Assembly (NCBI GenBank): GCA_039804165.1
Contig: JBDRZZ010000002.1
Span: 1 to 64,000, forward strand
Length of the DNA stretch: 64,000 nucleotides
DNA from: a candidate division WOR-3 bacterium
Lineage (GTDB): Bacteria > Hydrothermota > UBA3072
Direction: 5' to 3'
Part shown: positions 5,139-59,010 of the stretch, piece after piece
Position numbering within the stretch: position 1 is the first letter of the stretch
How the letters are laid out: every line of letters starts with the position of its first letter
The notes under the pieces: generated by a model
What the model saw: only the letters and a program-made list of their open reading frames with translations
The model's database searches: none
Told to the model about the DNA's origin: nothing
Program-made: the position numbers and the translations under genes

Positions 5139-6094
5139 TATTTTCTTCTTCCACGATTTAAAGTCTCGATCTCTTCTTGAAGTTTTTCTGGAGAAAGCTT
5201 AATATAACCACTTTCTTCAATAAATTTCTGCCCTTCATTTAATATCCACTCCACAAATTTTTTCGCCTCCCCCTTAAAAGGGCCCTTAGAGACCAGATAT
5301 TCGAATCTGGCTGGAGGAGAAGGATACTTTCCAATTGACACGTTATAAACGAATTTTTCTCTATTACTATAAAAATCTTCATCGGGGTCTAAAGTTCCGT
5401 TTTCGTTCAGGTCTATTGGCACAGGGCGAATTCCTTCTGCAAAAGAGCCAGTCTCTATATTGTATGCATAATTCAAATTGTTAAAACCTATAGAGTTTTT
5501 CTCTCTACTCACTGCAAGTGCAACAGCTTGATCTCCATCAAAATTTGCATGAGCTTTCTCTTTACAATCTCCCTGAGTATAATTCCCTAAAAATTCTGCC
5601 CACACCTGAGCCGCGCCTGAAGCATCAGATCTTCCATAAATAATTATTTTATCATCCTTAAGTTCCTTTCCCACAATTTCTCCCCATTCTTTGATCTCTC
5701 CCATAAATATTTTTCTTAATTCTTCTTTAGTTAAACCCCTTTTATATATCTCTTTTATAATTGGATTTTTCGAATTTATTGTCGCAACAACAGCATCTTT
5801 TGTCACGGCTACATAAAAAGCTCCTTCTTTTATTTCTTCTTCTCTTATAGGCCTTGATACCATACCTATATCCACCTGCCCACTCAAAACATCCGAAACT
5901 CCTTTTCCTGCTCCTCCTCCCGCGACTTCGACTTTAACACCGGAAACTTTCCCGTATTCTTCTGCCCAAACAAGCATCATTGGATATAAAGCCCAAGCCC
6001 CAGAAACCCTAATTTCTCTTCTTTCTTCTCTACCACTTTTACAACCACTTAAGAAAAGCAAAATAAGAATAAATCTAACCCACTTGTTGTTCAT
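5138..6094 (-). CDS. pstS: Phosphate-binding lipoprotein PstS
   Basis: Solute-binding protein that captures phosphate and delivers it to PstCA. A short signal ends in a lipobox (ILLFLSGCKSG, Cys at about residue 18), so it is lipid-anchored. The PstS-type fold is recognisable from GAWALYPMMLVWAEEY, the phosphate loop region AGGGAGKGVSDVLSG, VDIGMVSRPI and GRSDASGAAQVWAEFL. The 318-aa length is usual. First gene of the pst operon, with GGGAGGT before the ATG. The promoter upstream is overlain by a 26-bp palindrome. Confidence 0.95.
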   Translation of the reverse strand: MNNKWVRFILILLFLSGCKSGREERREIRVSGAWALYPMMLVWAEEYGKVSGVKVEVAGGGAGKGVSDVLSGQVDIGMVSRPIREEEIKEGAFYVAVTKDAVVATINSKNPIIKEIYKRGLTKEELRKIFMGEIKEWGEIVGKELKDDKIIIYGRSDASGAAQVWAEFLGNYTQGDCKEKAHANFDGDQAVALAVSREKNSIGFNNLNYAYNIETGSFAEGIRPVPIDLNENGTLDPDEDFYSNREKFVYNVSIGKYPSPPARFEYLVSKGPFKGEAKKFVEWILNEGQKFIEESGYIKLSPEKLQEEIETLNRGRRK

Positions 6095-6114
6095 AAAACC
6101 TCCCTTTATACTAC

Positions 6115-6140
6115 AATTTTACTATAATTATAGTAAAATT
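6115..6140. promoter_or_regulatory. 26-bp perfect palindrome, candidate operator of pst
   Basis: The half-site AATTTTACTATAA is followed immediately by its exact reverse complement, making a 26-bp palindrome centred between 6127 and 6128. It covers the putative -10 box of pstS and ends 21 bp upstream of the pstS start. A protein bound here would be expected to block transcription. Confidence 0.65.
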
Positions 6141-6153
6141 TAATTTTTGTCAA
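6127..6153 (-). promoter_or_regulatory. Candidate pst operon promoter
   Basis: On the minus strand TTGACA (6153-6148) is followed by a 15-bp spacer and TATAAT (6132-6127). Both boxes are perfect but the spacer is short, and the -10 box is inside the palindrome. This could suit a regulated promoter. Confidence 0.5.
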
Positions 6154-6202
6154 GGGTAAAATTTTTAATCTTTTCGAATTTAGGATCAAAATTCCTTCCT
6201 TT

Positions 6203-6412
6203 TTACAGGTATCCCAGTTTTTCTAATCGTTTCCTTATAATTTTAATTTCTTCACTTGAAAGTTCTTCTTTATTCCCTTCTGTAGAGGCCAGATCTCGGA
6301 GGACATATACCACAAACTCATTAACGCTACTAAATCCGGATTTCTGGATTATTTTCTTCAGCTTATTATATAAAGGTCTCGGTATCTTTAAGGTAACCTT
6401 ATCTGTTTTCAT
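6203..6412 (-). CDS. Ribbon-helix-helix (CopG-like) DNA-binding protein
   Basis: A 69-aa protein whose first 45 residues fit the ribbon-helix-helix fold: an N-terminal strand (KVTLKIPRPLYNKLKK), then a helix and turn (SGFSSVNEFVVYVLRDLAS). A short charged tail ends in ERLGYL-like residues (RKRLEKLGYL). Such proteins act as dimeric repressors on palindromes. It is transcribed toward pstS, whose start is 108 bp downstream, and the 26-bp palindrome lies between them. Regulation of pst is therefore plausible but not shown. It has no ribosome site; its promoter ends 5 bp before the ATG, so the mRNA is probably leaderless. Confidence 0.8.
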   Translation of the reverse strand: MKTDKVTLKIPRPLYNKLKKIIQKSGFSSVNEFVVYVLRDLASTEGNKEELSSEEIKIIRKRLEKLGYL

Positions 6413-26408: not shown

Positions 26409-28932
26409 CTAAACAGAAATCACAATTATCGTATCCAACATATGCGCATGGGAAAGAGTGGGGAACCCCACCATATTGGCTTTAGACATTTTGTTTATCC
26501 ATTTGCATCCTTTTTTATGAACCTCTTTAGATTTTGAAGGTATTTTCAGGTAAAGAACTATTTCTGACTTATCTTGATTCTGAAAAGGTATCCCTCTCAT
26601 ATAACAAACTCTTCCAGGAGTTAGTTTGTAGTAAGAATATCGAGTATTCACTTTTTCAAATTGCATTTCAATTAATTCTGCTCCTTCGGCAAGACGGCGA
26701 AGAATTCTAACATATACTTCAGTATCTTTAGGGAGTTTTTCTAGTTCAAATCTCACTTCTGAATATTCGTTGGCATTACCTCCAATAAAAAATTCCATAT
26801 CTATTAACCCTTCTGGTAGGACATCAACAACATTGATATTCTTCCAGGCAAAGTTATTGCTTTCCGAAATGAATTTACTATAAAGAGTGCCTGAGGTAAT
26901 TAAGGTTTTGTCAGGAGCAGGATCTATTGGATGATCGCGTTCACAAACCGGGCAAAAATGTCCAAGAGGTGGAAGAGCATCTTCGGGCCAGATAATCTCT
27001 CCAAAAGAAACAGAACCAGGCTGAACGTTATAAACCATTTTTGTTCTTACTAAATGCCAAGAAGAAGGATTTGCAAAAGTGCTTGGTTCTGCCCAATAAA
27101 CACTCACTTTTACATCACCTGGGACTGCTCCTCTATTCTGAAGACGCACATAAATATAATTATCTTATCCCAACTCCACATTCTCTGAGAGATTCTCATC
27201 ATTCATATCTCCTAAAGTTAAAGGAGGATTAGTGACCTTTCCCGTGCGAGTTATAATATCAGGACTCATCCAAAGATGACCAATTGAAGGGATCGTTCCA
27301 ACATCTGTCAAACTATCCCGCACATAGATATCCGGTCCAATACCCACAGCCGTAAATGCATTTTTTACAGAATCTAAAATTAGGAGATAGTTTGGATCTG
27401 TCTTAAAAAGAGCATTTACTGCATTTAGAGCTGCCTCACGGCATTCAAGAAATGGGGCGTTAGAGTTTCCAAGTAATCCGATAGACTGAATGTGCCAGAA
27501 TATCTCCTATGTTTTGGTGTAACCGATACCAGTTACAGAAATACCACTGTTTGGATGGATGCCGCCCATTAACATAAAATATGCGGCATAAATAACCGGA
27601 CCACAGTTTACATGAGGGGCTCCTTCTTTTATTGTTCCGTCAAGATTACAGGTTGTGTCCTTATAACCAATACTCATAGTATCTAAAAGCTGCAGCAACA
27701 TGGTTTGGAATTCTGAAATTTGCACCAAGAGCAGGATCCAAAGGATTGTTCATTCTTCTTAGACAATCTCCCGGAATAGATGGTTGGTCATCAGGATACC
27801 CAAGATTTGAAGTATGGTCAGTAACCGCATGGGTGAATTCGTGGGCCACTACATCCCTTGTTGTAAGGTAACTAAAGAGAACATTATTTCCATCACCAAA
27901 GTAAAATTTTTTTGAGATGGAGAATAAAAGACATTATTTTAGTCAGTGCCTCTGTGTGCTCCTGCATAAATGGTCGCTCCTCCACCGTCAAAACTATTCC
28001 ACCCAAACCTGGTTCTGTAATAATCTACAATTTCTCCAAAATACCGATGAATATCAACTTCTGCTTCTTGATTGTCTTTCCTTGGGGTTGTTGTGCTATT
28101 AATTCCAGTTATTGTCACTGTCTTCGCTGATATTGGCATCACTGCAATTATTAGTGGTGCCGTCTAAATCACAAGTTCTTATTTCTGGTCCTCCAGAAGA
28201 CATTCGGATATTGTGAATTAACTTATAGATAGTCCCATCTAGAACAGTACTTAGAGAACCACTTCCTGAATATACACCGACCCCACTTCCAATGTTTCTC
28301 AACGCATTTTTATGGATAATTTTACCATTGTGAGTATCTATATAGTAGTGAAGCTCTCTTTCATGCTCTAAGTCATCAATATGAACATTATAAGCGAGAT
28401 AAGTTTTATCTTTTCGTTGATAAATACAAAGTTTTGGAGAGTACCCTTCTTCGGGCTTCCCATCCTTAGCATCTTTTAGAGCAATTTGAATTGCATCTTC
28501 AACTTCGATCTTGGGTTTGGTATCTATCTCAATCTCAGGCTGATACTTATTGGTAAGTAAATTGATTGCACGGTTAGGATCAAATTGGACTCGAGCTATG
28601 CCTCCTTCTACTGGTATTCCATTATGCATCTGTTGCATAACAACGCAGGTATTTCCTTTAGAGTCTCTCACCTTTTTTATAAGCTTGAGCTCTTCTTTGG
28701 GATCTTTCATTCTTAAGAGCGATTTGTTTTCATCAAGGAATTCAAGGGCTGCTCCTATAATCATTCGTTCGGGCTTTCCTTCAAAAGGCTCGGCAATTTT
28801 CCTAGAGATAAAAGCAGATGCTTTTAACTTGTGATCCCATCTCATTCGCAATTTAGAATCCAACTGTCTAAACTTCTTCATAATAAACTCTTACCTTGGG
28901 GTCATAACTTTCTCTTTTTCTTCTTTTTTCAT
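26409..28932 (-). pseudogene. Broken thermolysin-like (M4) metalloprotease gene
   Basis: A single gene, decayed, read from a strong ribosome site (AAGGAGGG) and ATG at 28932. The order is: FTP/PepSY-type propeptide (PVEGGIARVQFD), M4 N-domain (VDYYRTRFGWNSFDGGG), zinc motif VVAHEFTHAVTD, GANFRIPNHVAAAF-type region, then NCGPVIYAAYFMLMGG and SVTGIGYTKT, and a C-terminal beta domain (DNYIYVRLQNRGA) ending at 26409. Four in-frame stops are at 28891-28893 (TAA), 27939-27941 (TAA), 27507-27509 (TAG) and 27165-27167 (TAA). Frameshifts lie near 28100-28140, in the T7 run 27907-27913, and near 27660-27700. No signal peptide is evident. The intact protein would be about 840 aa. Not a working gene unless heavily recoded. 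Confidence 0.85.
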
Positions 28933-53041: not shown

Positions 53042-53449
53042 ATGGAGAGAATAGGTAAAGTAATAAAAACAGATAAAAATATAGCAATTGTTTTTATAGA
53101 AACACCCGAAGAGTGTGAATCTTGCGAATTTGCAAGATTTTGCCATATAGGTGAAAGTGGAAGAGAGATTATTTGTAAAAATAATGTGGGGGCAAAAGTG
53201 GGTGATATTGTAAGCCTGGAGATAAGAGAGAGTAATTTTATTTTCGCCATTAGCTTAAACTTTCTTATTCCTCTTATTTTTCTTATATCTGGGATTTTAT
53301 TTGGGATTAAAATTTGGAAAAGCGAACTTTTCGGTTTTCTAACTGGGATAATTTTTATATCTTTTTACTTCCTTATATTTATTGTTATAGAGAAAAAGAG
53401 AAAAATTAATTCACTTCTTCCAGAAATAGGAAAGATAGAAAAAAGATAA
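53042..53449 (+). CDS. RseC/MucC-like membrane protein
   Basis: A 135-aa protein of the RseC family (positive regulator of sigma E in E. coli; related to RnfH/SoxR-reducing system partners). It has the N-terminal cysteine cluster CESCEFARFC (residues 21-30), two transmembrane helices at about 66-85 and 90-112, and a basic C-terminal tail. The Cys cluster may bind a metal or Fe-S. It lies directly after cysE and converges with nrdG with a 4-bp gap. Its partner in this genome is unknown. Confidence 0.82.
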   Translation: MERIGKVIKTDKNIAIVFIETPEECESCEFARFCHIGESGREIICKNNVGAKVGDIVSLEIRESNFIFAISLNFLIPLIFLISGILFGIKIWKSELFGFLTGIIFISFYFLIFIVIEKKRKINSLLPEIGKIEKR

Positions 53450-53453
53450 AGTT

Positions 53454-54143
53454 CTAATCCCTTACTTCTACTATTATAGCACAATCTTTAAGGAAGGAAG
53501 AAGCTTCCCATAGATATTCCTTAGGATAAGGTATAATTTTTGAAAATTCGGGAGAAACTGTTTTTACATTTTTAAAACCTTGTAAAACATACTTTTTTAC
53601 TTTACCAATCTTTTTGCATATCTCTTTAATGTCTTCTTTTTCTACAATACCAGGAACCATCGTGGTTCTAAATTCATAATTTTCCGTAGACTTAATTATA
53701 TCAATACTTTCTTCAACATCTTTGAAATTTGCCTTTTGCCCTGTGGCAAGGAAATATTTTTGAGGAGAACTTTTTATATCCATAGAAATATAATCAACAA
53801 AAGGGAGAGCTTCTCTAAGTTTATTGGGTAAAGTTCCATTTGTGTCAACTTTTATATAAATTCCAACTTCTTCTTTAATTCTTTTTAAAAAAGGAATTAT
53901 GCGATCGGGAAGTAAAGGTTCTCCCCCTGTAAAAGAAACTCCATCAATAAAACCTTTTCTTTCCTTCAATCTTTTTATGATTTCATCTTCTGGTATTTCA
54001 GGCAAATTTCTTAAAAGGTCTGGTAAAACAAGATCAGGATTATAACAAAAGGGACACCTTAAATTACACCCCCCAATAAAAACAACAGATGAGATTTTTT
54101 CTGGATATTCTATTAGGCTTGTCCCTAAGAAGGATTTAACCAC
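53454..54143 (-). CDS. nrdG: Anaerobic ribonucleotide reductase activating protein (radical SAM)
   Basis: Radical-SAM activase that forms the glycyl radical on class III ribonucleotide reductase. 229 aa; cluster motif CNLRCPFCYNPDLV near residue 27 (Cys-x3-Cys-x2-Cys), SFTGGEPLL, and KVDTNGTLP. It begins with GTG at 54143, inside the last codons of the small glycyl-radical gene (8-bp overlap), so their translation is coupled. Third in the order nrdD, radical domain, nrdG. Confidence 0.93.
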   Translation of the reverse strand: MVKSFLGTSLIEYPEKISSVVFIGGCNLRCPFCYNPDLVLPDLLRNLPEIPEDEIIKRLKERKGFIDGVSFTGGEPLLPDRIIPFLKRIKEEVGIYIKVDTNGTLPNKLREALPFVDYISMDIKSSPQKYFLATGQKANFKDVEESIDIIKSTENYEFRTTMVPGIVEKEDIKEICKKIGKVKKYVLQGFKNVKTVSPEFSKIIPYPKEYLWEASSFLKDCAIIVEVRD

Positions 54144-54306
54144 CTATTTTCAAATACTTTCTTTCTTTGAATTCTTCTCTCTTTCCTTCGTTCCAATCTT
54201 GAACAGGTCTATAATAACCAACCACTCGAGAGTAAACTTCTGTTTTTACAGCTACAATCTTTCTTTTATTTTCTTTTTTTTCTTTTTTACCTAATTCTTC
54301 AATCAC
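54136..54306 (-). CDS. Separate glycyl-radical domain of class III ribonucleotide reductase
   Basis: A 56-aa gene too small for ordinary calling, read on the minus strand from a GTG at 54306 preceded by GAAGGAGG. After a Lys/Glu-rich start (IEELGKKEKKENKRK) the sequence KTEVYSRVVGYYRPV then QDWNEGKREEFKERKYL matches the C-terminal glycyl-radical loop of NrdD (RVxGY with the radical Gly, here Gly30, then PVxxWNxGKxxEFxxR). The neighbouring NrdD ends before this segment, so the domain seems to be supplied in trans. It starts 26 bp after nrdD and overlaps nrdG by 8 bp. The match is by recognition of the motif. Confidence 0.85.
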   Translation of the reverse strand: MIEELGKKEKKENKRKIVAVKTEVYSRVVGYYRPVQDWNEGKREEFKERKYLKIGG

Positions 54307-54332
54307 AGAAGCCTCCTTCTATTATTTTTTAT

Positions 54333-56435
54333 TTAAAAAACTTTTAACCCTTCCTCTTCTATTTTCTCTTTCTCTTCAAATTCTCTGTAAGAACCTTCTT
54401 CCATCTTCAATAACTCTTCTTCATCTACTTCACAAACTTCCCCAAACGTCTCTATCTCTTCATCTGTGTGAGGATAGGGACAGTAAAATTTTTCACCCTT
54501 TATGTATCCATGAATAGGACATACAGAAAAGGTTGGAGTAAAACTGAAGTAGGGAAGAGAAAATCTATTTACAATTTTCCTTGTAAGTTCCCTAACCATC
54601 CTCCAATCACTAATTGCTTCTCCTAAAAAAAGATGAACAACAGTCCCACCTGTGAATAGAACCTGTAGGGGTTCTTGATGTTCGAGGAGAGTGAATATAT
54701 CATCCACCTCATCTACAGGAGGATGGACAGAATTTGTATAATATGGATAGTCTTTCCCTTTTGTGTAAATATCTGTGAATCTTTCCTTATCAGCCTTTGC
54801 CAAACGATACGAAGCACTCTCTGCAGGAGATGCTTCAAGATTATAGAGATTCCCTGTCTCTTCCTGGAATTCGGAGATTTTATCTCTCATAAATTTAAGC
54901 ACTTTTAGAGCCCATTCTCTTCCTTCTTTACTCATAATTCCTACCCCTAACATATTTATACAAGCTTCGTTCATTCCAATTAGACCTATTGTAGAAAAAT
55001 GATTTGCCCAGTAACGACCAAAGTTCTTTTTTATCTCCCTTAAATAGTATTTCGTATACGGATATAAACCTTCCTTTGTAAAATCTTCTATAATTTTTCT
55101 CTTAAGTTCTAAAGACTCTTTAGCAATTTCCATAATAGTGGCAAGTCGCTCGAAGAATTCTTCTTCGTCGCTTGAAAGATAACCAATTCTTGGGAGATTT
55201 ATTGTTACAACACCAATGCTTCCTGTTAGAGGATTGGATCCAAAAAGGCCTCCTCCTCTTTTCCTTAATTCCCTTTTGTCAAGACGAAGCCTACAGCACA
55301 TACTTCTTGCATCTTCAGGGTCCATATCTGAAGAGACAAAATTGCTGAAATAAGGAATTCCATATTTTCCTGTCATTTTCCAAATTGGTATAAGATCTTC
55401 ATTTTCCCAATCAAAATCTTTTGTTATATTATAAGTTGGAATAGGGAAAGTAAAGATTCTTCCTTTTGCATCTCCTTCCATCATCAATTCTGCAAAGGCC
55501 TTATTTATCATATTCATTTCTTCTTGAAAATCTCCATAAACTTCTTCTCTTTCTACTCCACCCAAAATTACCTTTCTATTAACTAGAGTCTTTGGAGGTT
55601 TTAGATCCATTGTTATATTTGAAAAAGGTGTTTGAAATCCAACTCTTGTAGGAACATTTATATTAAATAAAAATTCTTGTAAGGCTTGTTTTACCTCTTT
55701 ATAAGATAAGTTGTCATATCTAACAAAAGGAGCTAAAAGTGTATCGAAGTTAGAAAAAGCTTGAGCTCCTGCCGCTTCTCCTTGAAGGGTGTATATGAAA
55801 TTCACAACTTGACCAAGGGCGCTTCTTAAGTGTCTTGGAGGCGAAGATTCAACTTTCCCGCTCATACCTTTGAAGCCCTCTTTTAATAGGTCCAACAAAT
55901 CCCATCCAACACAATAAGGCCCAAGAATCCCAAGATCATGAATATGGAAATCGCCACTGCTATGAGCTTCTCTAATTCTTGGGCTATAAATCTTTCCAAG
56001 CCAATACCGAGCAGTAATTGAAGAAGAAACATAAAAATTTAATCCTTGAAGAGAAAAATTCATATTTGAATTTTCTTGAACTCTCCAATCTTCTTTCTTT
56101 AAATATTTACCCATAATTGTTTCAACATCCTTAAAGAGATCTTCAACTTTGCGAGCTTCGTTTCTTTTTTCTCTGTAAAGAATATATGCTCTTGCTACTT
56201 CGGGAAGTCTCCGAAACATTAGGGTCTCTTCTACATAGTTTTGAATCTCTTCTACGGTAGGAATATTCCCAACCCTAAAGAAGTGCATATAAAGGGAAGT
56301 TTCAACCTGATTTGTGATAGAATCTGCATCTTCTTTCACTCCTGTGGCTTTTAAAGCCTTGGAAATAGCATCTTTAATTTTCTTTTTGTTATAAGGAACT
56401 ATCTTTCCCGATCTTTTCCTAATAAGCCATTCCAT
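54333..56435 (-). CDS. nrdD: Anaerobic ribonucleoside-triphosphate reductase, large part (no glycyl-radical tail)
   Basis: Class III reductase making dNTPs without oxygen. 700 aa: N-terminal ATP cone (KRSGKIVPYNKKKIKDAISK, residues 5-95), then the ten-stranded barrel with GQVVNFIYTLQGEAAGAQAF, FPIPTYNITKDF, SMCCRLRLDKREL and GSIGVVTINLPRIGYL (active-site Cys region), VLFTGGTVVHLFLGE, and a C-terminal FSVCPIHGYIKGEKFYCPYP that is half of a zinc site. The protein then ends in an acidic tail (EEGLKVF) with no RVxGY radical loop. That loop lies in the next small gene. A frameshift is unlikely, since a ribosome site and new start follow. Confidence 0.93.
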   Translation of the reverse strand: MEWLIRKRSGKIVPYNKKKIKDAISKALKATGVKEDADSITNQVETSLYMHFFRVGNIPTVEEIQNYVEETLMFRRLPEVARAYILYREKRNEARKVEDLFKDVETIMGKYLKKEDWRVQENSNMNFSLQGLNFYVSSSITARYWLGKIYSPRIREAHSSGDFHIHDLGILGPYCVGWDLLDLLKEGFKGMSGKVESSPPRHLRSALGQVVNFIYTLQGEAAGAQAFSNFDTLLAPFVRYDNLSYKEVKQALQEFLFNINVPTRVGFQTPFSNITMDLKPPKTLVNRKVILGGVEREEVYGDFQEEMNMINKAFAELMMEGDAKGRIFTFPIPTYNITKDFDWENEDLIPIWKMTGKYGIPYFSNFVSSDMDPEDARSMCCRLRLDKRELRKRGGGLFGSNPLTGSIGVVTINLPRIGYLSSDEEEFFERLATIMEIAKESLELKRKIIEDFTKEGLYPYTKYYLREIKKNFGRYWANHFSTIGLIGMNEACINMLGVGIMSKEGREWALKVLKFMRDKISEFQEETGNLYNLEASPAESASYRLAKADKERFTDIYTKGKDYPYYTNSVHPPVDEVDDIFTLLEHQEPLQVLFTGGTVVHLFLGEAISDWRMVRELTRKIVNRFSLPYFSFTPTFSVCPIHGYIKGEKFYCPYPHTDEEIETFGEVCEVDEEELLKMEEGSYREFEEKEKIEEEGLKVF

Positions 56436-57406: not shown

Positions 57407-58975
57407 TTATTTTCTTTTTATACACTTAAATACAAAGACTTTATTATCTGGTTCTATATAAACAAGCTTCCAATTATATTCTTCTTTAAGTCCATTCATT
57501 CCTTTTACAACAATAGGATAAGATTTGAAGAGGGGTGAAAGAACAATATAATCCACTTTTTTTGTTTCTATAATATTTTTCAATTCCTCTGGATTTTCTG
57601 TCTGGGGAACAGGAGCTGTAGGAAAATCAGTAAAATAGTGGAAAGCTGTTTGTTTTCTTACCATAAAGACAGAATTCTCTTGAATCTTCTCTCTTAGTGC
57701 CCAATTTTTAATATTTATATAATCTTTGAAATAAAAGGCTCTTCCCGAGGGAATTTTCTCCTTTATCCATTTCATATTATTTTTCCACAACTCATTAGAA
57801 CTAGTTAAAGCAATGAAAACACAATTAGCCACCAACAATCCTGTAATAAAAAAAGGAAACTTCTTCGCTATCCCTTTTTGGAAAAGCCTTGTAATTCTAA
57901 CTGAACCTTTAGCTAAACAAAAAGCAAGCCATGGTAGAATTGGAAGATAAAGCCTTTTATCTACAGTCCATATAACTGGCCAAGACCAAACTGTTAAAAG
58001 ATATAAAAACATATAAGTATTTATGAGATTTAAAGTTGAAAAAGAGGATTTTTTCTCTTCGTCGGTTTTTTTAAAAAATATTTTCTCTGAAACTACACCG
58101 AAAGATAAAAGAGAAAGAAGTATAATACTAATAGATAAGGAAATTAGAAGAATTTTAATTTCTCCAAAGAAGATATTGGGTAAAATTTTGAGGAACATCC
58201 TCAAGATATTTTTACCTATTCTAAATATTAAATTCAGAATACCAATATTACCCATGGAAGGATTATAAGGATCTTTTGAAATAAGTTGTTGGAAATATGA
58301 TCGCTGAAACTGGGAACCAAACACTTTTCCATAAATTATCCAAATGGGTATAAATAGTAGAGCGAGTAAAGGAATTATTGTTTTCTTTCTCTCTATCTTT
58401 GATTTCAAGATATAAAAACCAATCACAGCGATTAGTAAACTGATACCAGCGGTTCTCGTAAAAAAACCTATAATTGAAAAAAACAATGCGAGATTATATC
58501 TTTTTTTACTCCAGGATAGCAAAGATAAAACAGAGAATAGTAGATAAGGAATATCAGAAAGAACCCAATGGCTATATTCAAGGAGCCCTGGCGAAAAAGC
58601 AAGAAAAGCTAAAGCTACTATAGATATCATCTTTGAATTTGAGTAATCCAATTCCAGAAACAGGAGGTAAGAAAAGAACAATAAAAAAATGAAGCATAAA
58701 AAAACAATTAACTTAGCGAGTAAATAAGAATTTAGAAAAGCTGCTGGGATAAGGAGGATCGGAAATATAGGAGGATATTGGGTATGGAGTGGATGGCTTG
58801 GGTCCCACAACTCAATATATCCTTTCCCTTTAGCAAGTGCTCTTCCGAGAAGAAAATAAGTGAAATTATCTCCACCACTAAAGGGAACAAGAGAAAAAGT
58901 AACCAAAGCAAGGATAATTGAAAAAATTATGAGTATTATTGGAACTTTTTCTTTTTTAATTTTTATACCAACCAT
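57407..58975 (-). CDS. GT39-type membrane glycosyltransferase (ArnT/PMT-like)
   Basis: Polytopic GT-C enzyme that transfers sugars from a polyprenyl-phosphate donor. About 11-12 membrane spans. Conserved features: an acidic loop after span 1 (FSGGDNFTYFLLGRALAKGKGYI), HTQYPPIFPIL, LEYSHWVLSDIPYLLF and basic loops KKR/RKK. I use the ATG at 58975 (522 aa); a TTG at 58993 is also possible. It follows a GT2 gene of the DPM1 type, which would supply the lipid-linked sugar. The acceptor (glycan, protein or lipid A) is unknown. Confidence 0.8.
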   Translation of the reverse strand: MVGIKIKKEKVPIILIIFSIILALVTFSLVPFSGGDNFTYFLLGRALAKGKGYIELWDPSHPLHTQYPPIFPILLIPAAFLNSYLLAKLIVFLCFIFLLFFSYLLFLELDYSNSKMISIVALAFLAFSPGLLEYSHWVLSDIPYLLFSVLSLLSWSKKRYNLALFFSIIGFFTRTAGISLLIAVIGFYILKSKIERKKTIIPLLALLFIPIWIIYGKVFGSQFQRSYFQQLISKDPYNPSMGNIGILNLIFRIGKNILRMFLKILPNIFFGEIKILLISLSISIILLSLLSFGVVSEKIFFKKTDEEKKSSFSTLNLINTYMFLYLLTVWSWPVIWTVDKRLYLPILPWLAFCLAKGSVRITRLFQKGIAKKFPFFITGLLVANCVFIALTSSNELWKNNMKWIKEKIPSGRAFYFKDYINIKNWALREKIQENSVFMVRKQTAFHYFTDFPTAPVPQTENPEELKNIIETKKVDYIVLSPLFKSYPIVVKGMNGLKEEYNWKLVYIEPDNKVFVFKCIKRK

Positions 58976-59010
58976 CTTTAAACCGCAAAACAAATAAGGT
59001 TCTGACTCTC

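Follow-up and report, generated by a model that had tools for sequence, protein, structure and literature searches.

A class III ribonucleotide reductase with its glycyl-radical loop encoded by a separate small gene in a candidate division WOR-3 bacterium

In the textbook picture, class III ribonucleotide reductase (RNR) consists of one chain, which bears its own radical. The locus described here lies in a stretch of 64,000 nucleotides, called the window below (positions 1 to 64,000 of the forward strand of contig JBDRZZ010000002.1, GenBank assembly GCA_039804165.1), from a candidate division WOR-3 bacterium, and it encodes such an enzyme in two pieces: a 700-amino-acid (aa) NrdD and, on a gene of its own, a 56-aa protein carrying the radical loop. 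With the known NrdD/NrdG systems of the PRK08270/NF006126 type (phage T4, E. coli, T. maritima, P. copri, S. thermophilus) it has in common the ATP-cone, the barrel, the finger loop with its MCCR motif, the NxN flap, the RVVGY radical loop and an activase, NrdG2, encoded in the operon. It departs from them in that the loop is on a separate chain and that the usual CPxC of the zinc site is replaced by CPYPH on the stub left at the end of the core.

Small stand-alone glycyl-radical proteins are known from another enzyme: YfiD (GrcA) of E. coli and Y06I of phage T4 restore oxygen-cleaved pyruvate formate-lyase (PFL) in trans (PMC8683613). These two, both acting on PFL, are the only validated spare parts, although others may exist (Andorfer et al. 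2021, PMC8683613). Like them, the window protein is small and stands alone, its kind also occurs in phages, and it is expected to be activated by the activase of the parent enzyme and to dock in trans. Unlike them, it belongs to NrdD rather than to PFL, it has 56 aa whereas they are of about 14 kDa, and it would serve as the regular, sole radical subunit and not for the repair of an enzyme that is otherwise intact. The nearest counterpart is found on plasmid pHG1 of C. necator H16 (H16_RS32680, RS32675, RS32670), with the same order of core, small glycyl-radical domain (GRD) gene and overlapping nrdG; its GRD protein, of 66 aa, is labelled nrdD by NCBI. It differs in keeping a CPRC zinc pair, in the MGYHRP type of its GRD and in forming an independent split lineage in our tree. 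The split class II enzyme NrdJab of Pseudomonas and the phage nrdD genes interrupted by introns, inteins or homing endonucleases are likewise reductases in pieces, but the class or the breakpoint is another and no small transferable radical subunit results. Thus class III RNR itself is known and single split cases are annotated in NCBI; in the literature, subscription papers being outside our reach, we found no description of split NrdD, of unlinked radical subunits, of phage-borne NrdD radical domains or of NrdD spare parts. The term 'NrdDc' designates a subclass.

A preliminary description of the locus, made from the sequence alone, had proposed that the 700-aa NrdD lacks the radical loop and that the loop lies 26 nt downstream on a small gene with its own Shine-Dalgarno (SD) site and GTG start, overlapping nrdG. 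This gene structure was borne out (Table 1). The core matches PF13597 over positions 1-535 of 562 with 605 bits (cut-off 26.2) and NF006126 with 1015 bits (cut-off 548), and it carries the ATP-cone PF03477 at residues 5-93 (78 bits). The loop, which is not on this chain, is found on the 56-aa chain, for which the match to PF13597 covers positions 533-560 (E-value 2e-9), with further matches to PRK08579 (8.7e-10) and TIGR02487 (1.5e-8). Because this is exactly the end that the core is missing, a chance match is excluded, and the two proteins together therefore make up one complete NrdD. The AAGGAGG of the small gene is 5 nt from its GTG, nrdG2 shares 8 nt with it, and the CxxxCxxC motif of NrdG2 reads CNLRCPFC (residues 26-33). 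The 56-aa protein matched NrdD models only; it did not show the homology to the PFL radical domain that characterizes YfiD/GrcA. A search of PDB with it gave only a chance match, to arginine kinase, NCBIfam holds no model for the small protein on its own, and in PHROGs the stand-alone radical domain has weak matches, to NrdD-like families or families of unknown function.

Table 1. Features of the split nrdD locus (positions in the window)
Feature	Position	Strand	Evidence
NrdG2 activase, radical SAM (S-adenosylmethionine), GTG start	53454..54143	(-)	TIGR02495, 168.9 bits (cut-off 131)
Stand-alone glycyl-radical-loop gene, 56 aa, GTG start	54136..54306	(-)	PF13597, PRK08579, TIGR02487, conservation, purifying selection
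Radical glycine codon, Gly30 of the small protein, in YSRVVGYYRP	54217..54219	(-)	Gly invariant in stand-alone copies
26-nt spacer from core stop to small gene, AAGGAGG at 54312-54318	54307..54332	(-)	
NrdD catalytic core, 700 aa, ATG start, TAA stop, without radical loop	54333..56435	(-)	NF006126, PF13597, PF03477
Zinc-site candidates CPIH (639-642) and CPYPH (652-656), core C-terminus	54468..54521	(-)	CPxH...CPYxH kept in split relatives
Finger-loop motif SMCCRL, double-cysteine MCCR type	55287..55304	(-)	MCCR invariant in homologue alignment
Active-site strand GPYCVGW, conserved Cys = residue 175	55902..55922	(-)	Invariant among 26 homologues
NxN substrate flap motif ENSNMN, NrdD residues 121-126	56058..56075	(-)	

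In the GRD of P. copri NrdD a zinc site is followed by the radical loop (PMC11226230); the cut in the window therefore falls between those two halves, so that, judging from the motifs, the zinc part of the canonical domain stays on the core and the loop goes with the small protein. The core had been described as ending in half a zinc site, which is probably wrong: CPIH...CPYPH could supply a full set of ligands, C, H, C and H, where CPxH...CPxC is usual, and the CPxxH variant is also found in three relatives with a continuous NrdD (L066, L077, L113).

The genome to which the window belongs (G000) is a draft of 49 contigs, 95% complete, in which our search revealed a single NrdD core and, standing alone, two radical domains. 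The large subunit of class I and II RNRs (PF02867) was sought in it and not found, the same search being positive in 11 of 14 control genomes. Nor does this genome contain a second full-length nrdD, which according to the preliminary description might have done the work instead. With one core and no class I or II enzyme, the split reductase is thus the only visible source of deoxynucleoside triphosphates (dNTPs) in G000. In three genomes of the window's own family (G002, G003 and G005) no NrdD was found at all.

The arrangement is widespread and recurrent, which goes beyond what had been noticed in the window. The closest named relative is another candidate division WOR-3 genome (L053), whose core is 85% identical. 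In the window's phylum about 20 of the 89 genomes matching PF13597, from 7 to 8 families, have a loop-less core, the others being continuous, and a separate radical domain was found in nearly all of these 20 or so. The split also occurs in Fermentibacteria, TA06, Chloroflexi, Thermodesulfobacterium, Spirochaetes, Desulfuromonadales and Burkholderiales, and in a micrarchaeote, a gracilibacterium and a verrucomicrobium; since split-type C-termini served as seeds for the genome scan and the best 80 loci were taken, this list is no measure of frequency. Four finished plasmids have the order core, small GRD gene, nrdG (Sulfuricurvum pSULKU01 and, from Pseudomonadota, C. necator pHG1, Bradyrhizobium pNK6c and Paracoccus pFER4), the small gene being annotated as nrdD or hypothetical, and on pFER4 its overlap with nrdG is likewise of 8 nt. 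The nrdDG genes of the C. necator H16 plasmid were reported to be essential for complete denitrification (PMC2864759). On another plasmid, pALVIN01 of Allochromatium vinosum (L134, 3501-3710), a radical gene is annotated nrdD, and the annotation shows neither a core nor nrdG within 3.5 kb of it.

The small gene is under strong purifying selection: in a codon comparison of the radical part between the window and L053, the proportions of synonymous (pS) and non-synonymous (pN) differences were 0.67 and 0.042. In family f29 core and radical gene are unlinked. Neither a radical gene nor nrdG adjoins the core in G061 and G062, where the sole radical gene seen is a 53-aa open reading frame (ORF) in an unrelated operon; a third genome (G063) has the same operon with the radical gene, its core being found only as a fragment. 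Between the G061 and G063 copies pS is 0.96 and pN 0.027, i.e. synonymous sites are nearly saturated with almost no amino-acid change. Being unlinked to the core, the radical gene of f29 would have to act in trans, and the unlinked genes of these three genomes are the genomic basis for supposing that such a domain may serve a core without a loop of its own.

To be activated by NrdG, the radical domain of known enzymes flips out (PMC12662201), and that of P. copri NrdD is mobile and can be wholly disordered with dATP bound (PMC11226230). Given this mobility and the PFL precedent for action in trans, a separate radical subunit would need no new chemistry. As input for AlphaFold2 (AF2) we used the natural in-frame read-through of relative L063, with its TAG read as Ser. 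The mean predicted local distance difference test score (pLDDT) was 84, with 83-89 for the radical part (712-750) and about 40 for the junction (694-709), and the top PDB matches of the model were class III RNRs. The prediction agrees with a flexibly tethered domain, the position of the stop coinciding exactly with the tether.

In the mechanism that we propose, the core would provide the ATP-cone, the barrel, the finger-loop cysteines and a zinc-binding stub, and the small protein the radical loop with Gly30 and a C-terminal tail. NrdG2 would form the glycyl radical on the small protein, whether this is free or only loosely attached; the loop would then insert into the barrel of the core beside the finger-loop cysteine, and the normal cycle would run. 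The likely advantage would be that a loop cleaved by oxygen could be exchanged without discarding a core of about 80 kDa, and such a replacement is our leading idea of why the split may be favoured.

A working two-chain class III RNR, with a radical domain that docks in trans, is in our opinion the best reading of the locus, and one that is very probably correct, as the preliminary description had supposed. It has behind it the structure and conservation of the genes, the absence of another RNR (class I, class II or full-length NrdD), the recurrence of the split and the unlinked copies; the two proteins would form a complex, the radical would arise on the small chain, and the enzyme would turn over. 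Several points weigh on the other side. The fourth zinc ligand of the core is a guess, and as G000 is a draft at 95%, another RNR could be missed. The AF2 model is that of one covalent chain from a relative and is no test of two-chain docking, and the complex itself is a prediction from the genes.

The strongest alternative is compatible with two chains and concerns the reason for the split. The small protein could be mainly a spare part of the YfiD/GrcA kind, replacing an NrdD loop cleaved by oxygen, and the split a remnant after the fused copy was lost; we regard this as a serious possibility, somewhat short of an even chance. Second stand-alone copies speak for it. In G000 the other radical gene lies on contig C6 at about 27005-27178 (L151:7006-7179), between nifS and an O-acetylhomoserine (OAH) sulfhydrylase gene, in an operon nifU-nifS-GRD2-OAH sulfhydrylase-Rrf2 regulator; in G001 one is on contig C9 (L149:5260-5445), between genes for a sulfurtransferase and an MBL-rhodanese protein. 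Both are sulfur or Fe-S neighbourhoods, that of G000 also holding cysK. A relative with a continuous NrdD and an extra GRD gene ahead of nrdG (L110), whose kin are continuous (L131) or split (L114), argues in the same direction, as does the PFL precedent, which includes a phage protein, Y06I of T4. Against it, the small protein is obligatory and not a reserve in the window genome, and a number of organisms with the split seem to be strict anaerobes. A role as a spare part, like that of YfiD/GrcA and Y06I, is plausible.

Viruses add further copies. Among the best 80 viral loci (L152-L231, from viral_contigs), 55 show a radical ORF that stands alone, with no core; in 50 of these a search of the whole contig (5.8-72 kb) revealed only the radical domain and no core, though the contigs may be fragments, and these 50 also favour the idea of a spare part. 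The domains are mostly of 41-92 aa (e.g. L188:3980-4144, L187:3983-4120 and L201:4040-4189), and the contig of L189 carries two. In five sampled contigs the neighbours are phage genes (Sak4, SSB, RusA, DnaB, portal, terminase), the radical gene of L188 sitting between those for Sak4 and SSB. A split core together with a radical gene was found in four viral loci (L155, L160, L176 and L198). The faecal phage MT835493 was rejected as a carrier of a stand-alone copy, the motif lying within an 810-aa ORF. A phage stand-alone domain is a possible spare part for the host's NrdD. The viral radical gene nearest to that of the window is on the L152 contig, which also encodes a membrane protein (5330-6349) 34% identical to that of window positions 57410-58993, a hint at a related bacterial host.

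As to the origin of the split, a tree of 104 cores, computed by a quick search with the radical columns excluded, requires 8 transitions between the split and the continuous state, at least 6 of them forced by strongly supported branches, and a single origin, with all split rows forced into one clade, was rejected (p 9e-37). The tree cannot separate gain from loss, and some changes may be re-fusions, a possible example being the continuous Caldisericia pair L066/L067, nested in a split clade. One clade (support 100*) shows three states: L131 is continuous, L110 is continuous with an extra zinc-ribbon radical gene ahead of nrdG, and L114 is split with such a gene, which suggests that the stand-alone copy was gained before the fused one was lost. 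Zinc-ribbon proteins of this sort (CHDC...KCxxC) are encoded at L110:4353-4667, L114:4262-4594, L150:3780-4163 and L214:3641-4111, and the C-terminal end of phrog_4132 (unknown function) gives a weak match to radical domains. A degenerate second radical end with stop codons, a tandem-duplication remnant, lies just downstream of a continuous NrdD (G053:C5:28806-28943, L049). At this point we may tentatively go one step further, to a proposal that we hold a little less likely than spare-part use itself: the NrdD radical domain would be diffusible and exchangeable, bacteria would swap it after oxygen damage, phages would use their own copy to keep up or restart dNTP synthesis in the host, and splits would arise repeatedly when a stand-alone copy is gained, perhaps from a phage, and the fused one then lost.

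The other explanations deny that two working chains exist. The core could be a relic or a radical-free enzyme, with dNTPs coming from elsewhere, as it has no radical residue by itself and the genome is a draft; this is very improbable, since no PF02867 reductase was found in G000, the active-site Cys, the MCCR and the NxN motif are intact in GPYCVGW, SMCCRL and ENSNMN (for the flap see PMC11226230, for the finger-loop classes PMC9669993), and the GRD and NrdG2 are encoded in the same operon. Still less likely is that a programmed frameshift, stop read-through or trans-splicing joins the pieces into one chain. A few loci (L039 and L040) do have an in-frame ATG directly after the stop, but neither frame nor spacing is conserved: in 53 split loci the small gene is in relative frame 0, 1 or 2 in 14, 17 and 22 cases, and it starts between -26 and +222 nt from the stop of the core, nearly always behind an SD site. 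Mixed frames and separate SD sites mean that two chains are made; the unlinked genes of f29 speak against joining too, and the inteins of some relatives sit within the core and not at the junction. Large core insertions consistent with inteins were seen in the split cores L142, L143, L043, L037, L070, L072 and L160, with ORFs of about 1000-1470 aa and a hidden Markov model (HMM) match in two or three pieces. Finally, a sequencing or assembly error that breaks an ordinary nrdD, which adjacent, out-of-frame pieces might suggest, has a negligible chance of being the cause and is already refuted by the relatives that the preliminary description wished to see compared, for the small gene has its own SD site and start, the same split is present in dozens of independent assemblies and in complete plasmids, in all three frames and at all spacings, and unlinked copies exist.

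Near nrdG, a gene for a small membrane protein that is rich in cysteine and, by eye, resembles RseC is present both in the window (53042-53449, no NCBIfam match) and at L146:3636-4052.

A recurrent two-chain form of class III RNR would imply that a protein of about 50 residues is enough to receive a glycyl radical and to deliver it, and it would offer a minimal system in which the access of NrdG to the buried glycine and the docking of the loop could be studied. It also bears on annotation, where the small genes go under the name 'nrdD' or 'hypothetical' or would be overlooked and NrdD cores may look truncated. Since NrdD radical domains stand alone in both bacteria and phages, the question of further spare parts is directly testable, and if the radical domain is indeed an exchangeable subunit, NrdD would gain a spare-part system of the kind so far shown only for PFL.
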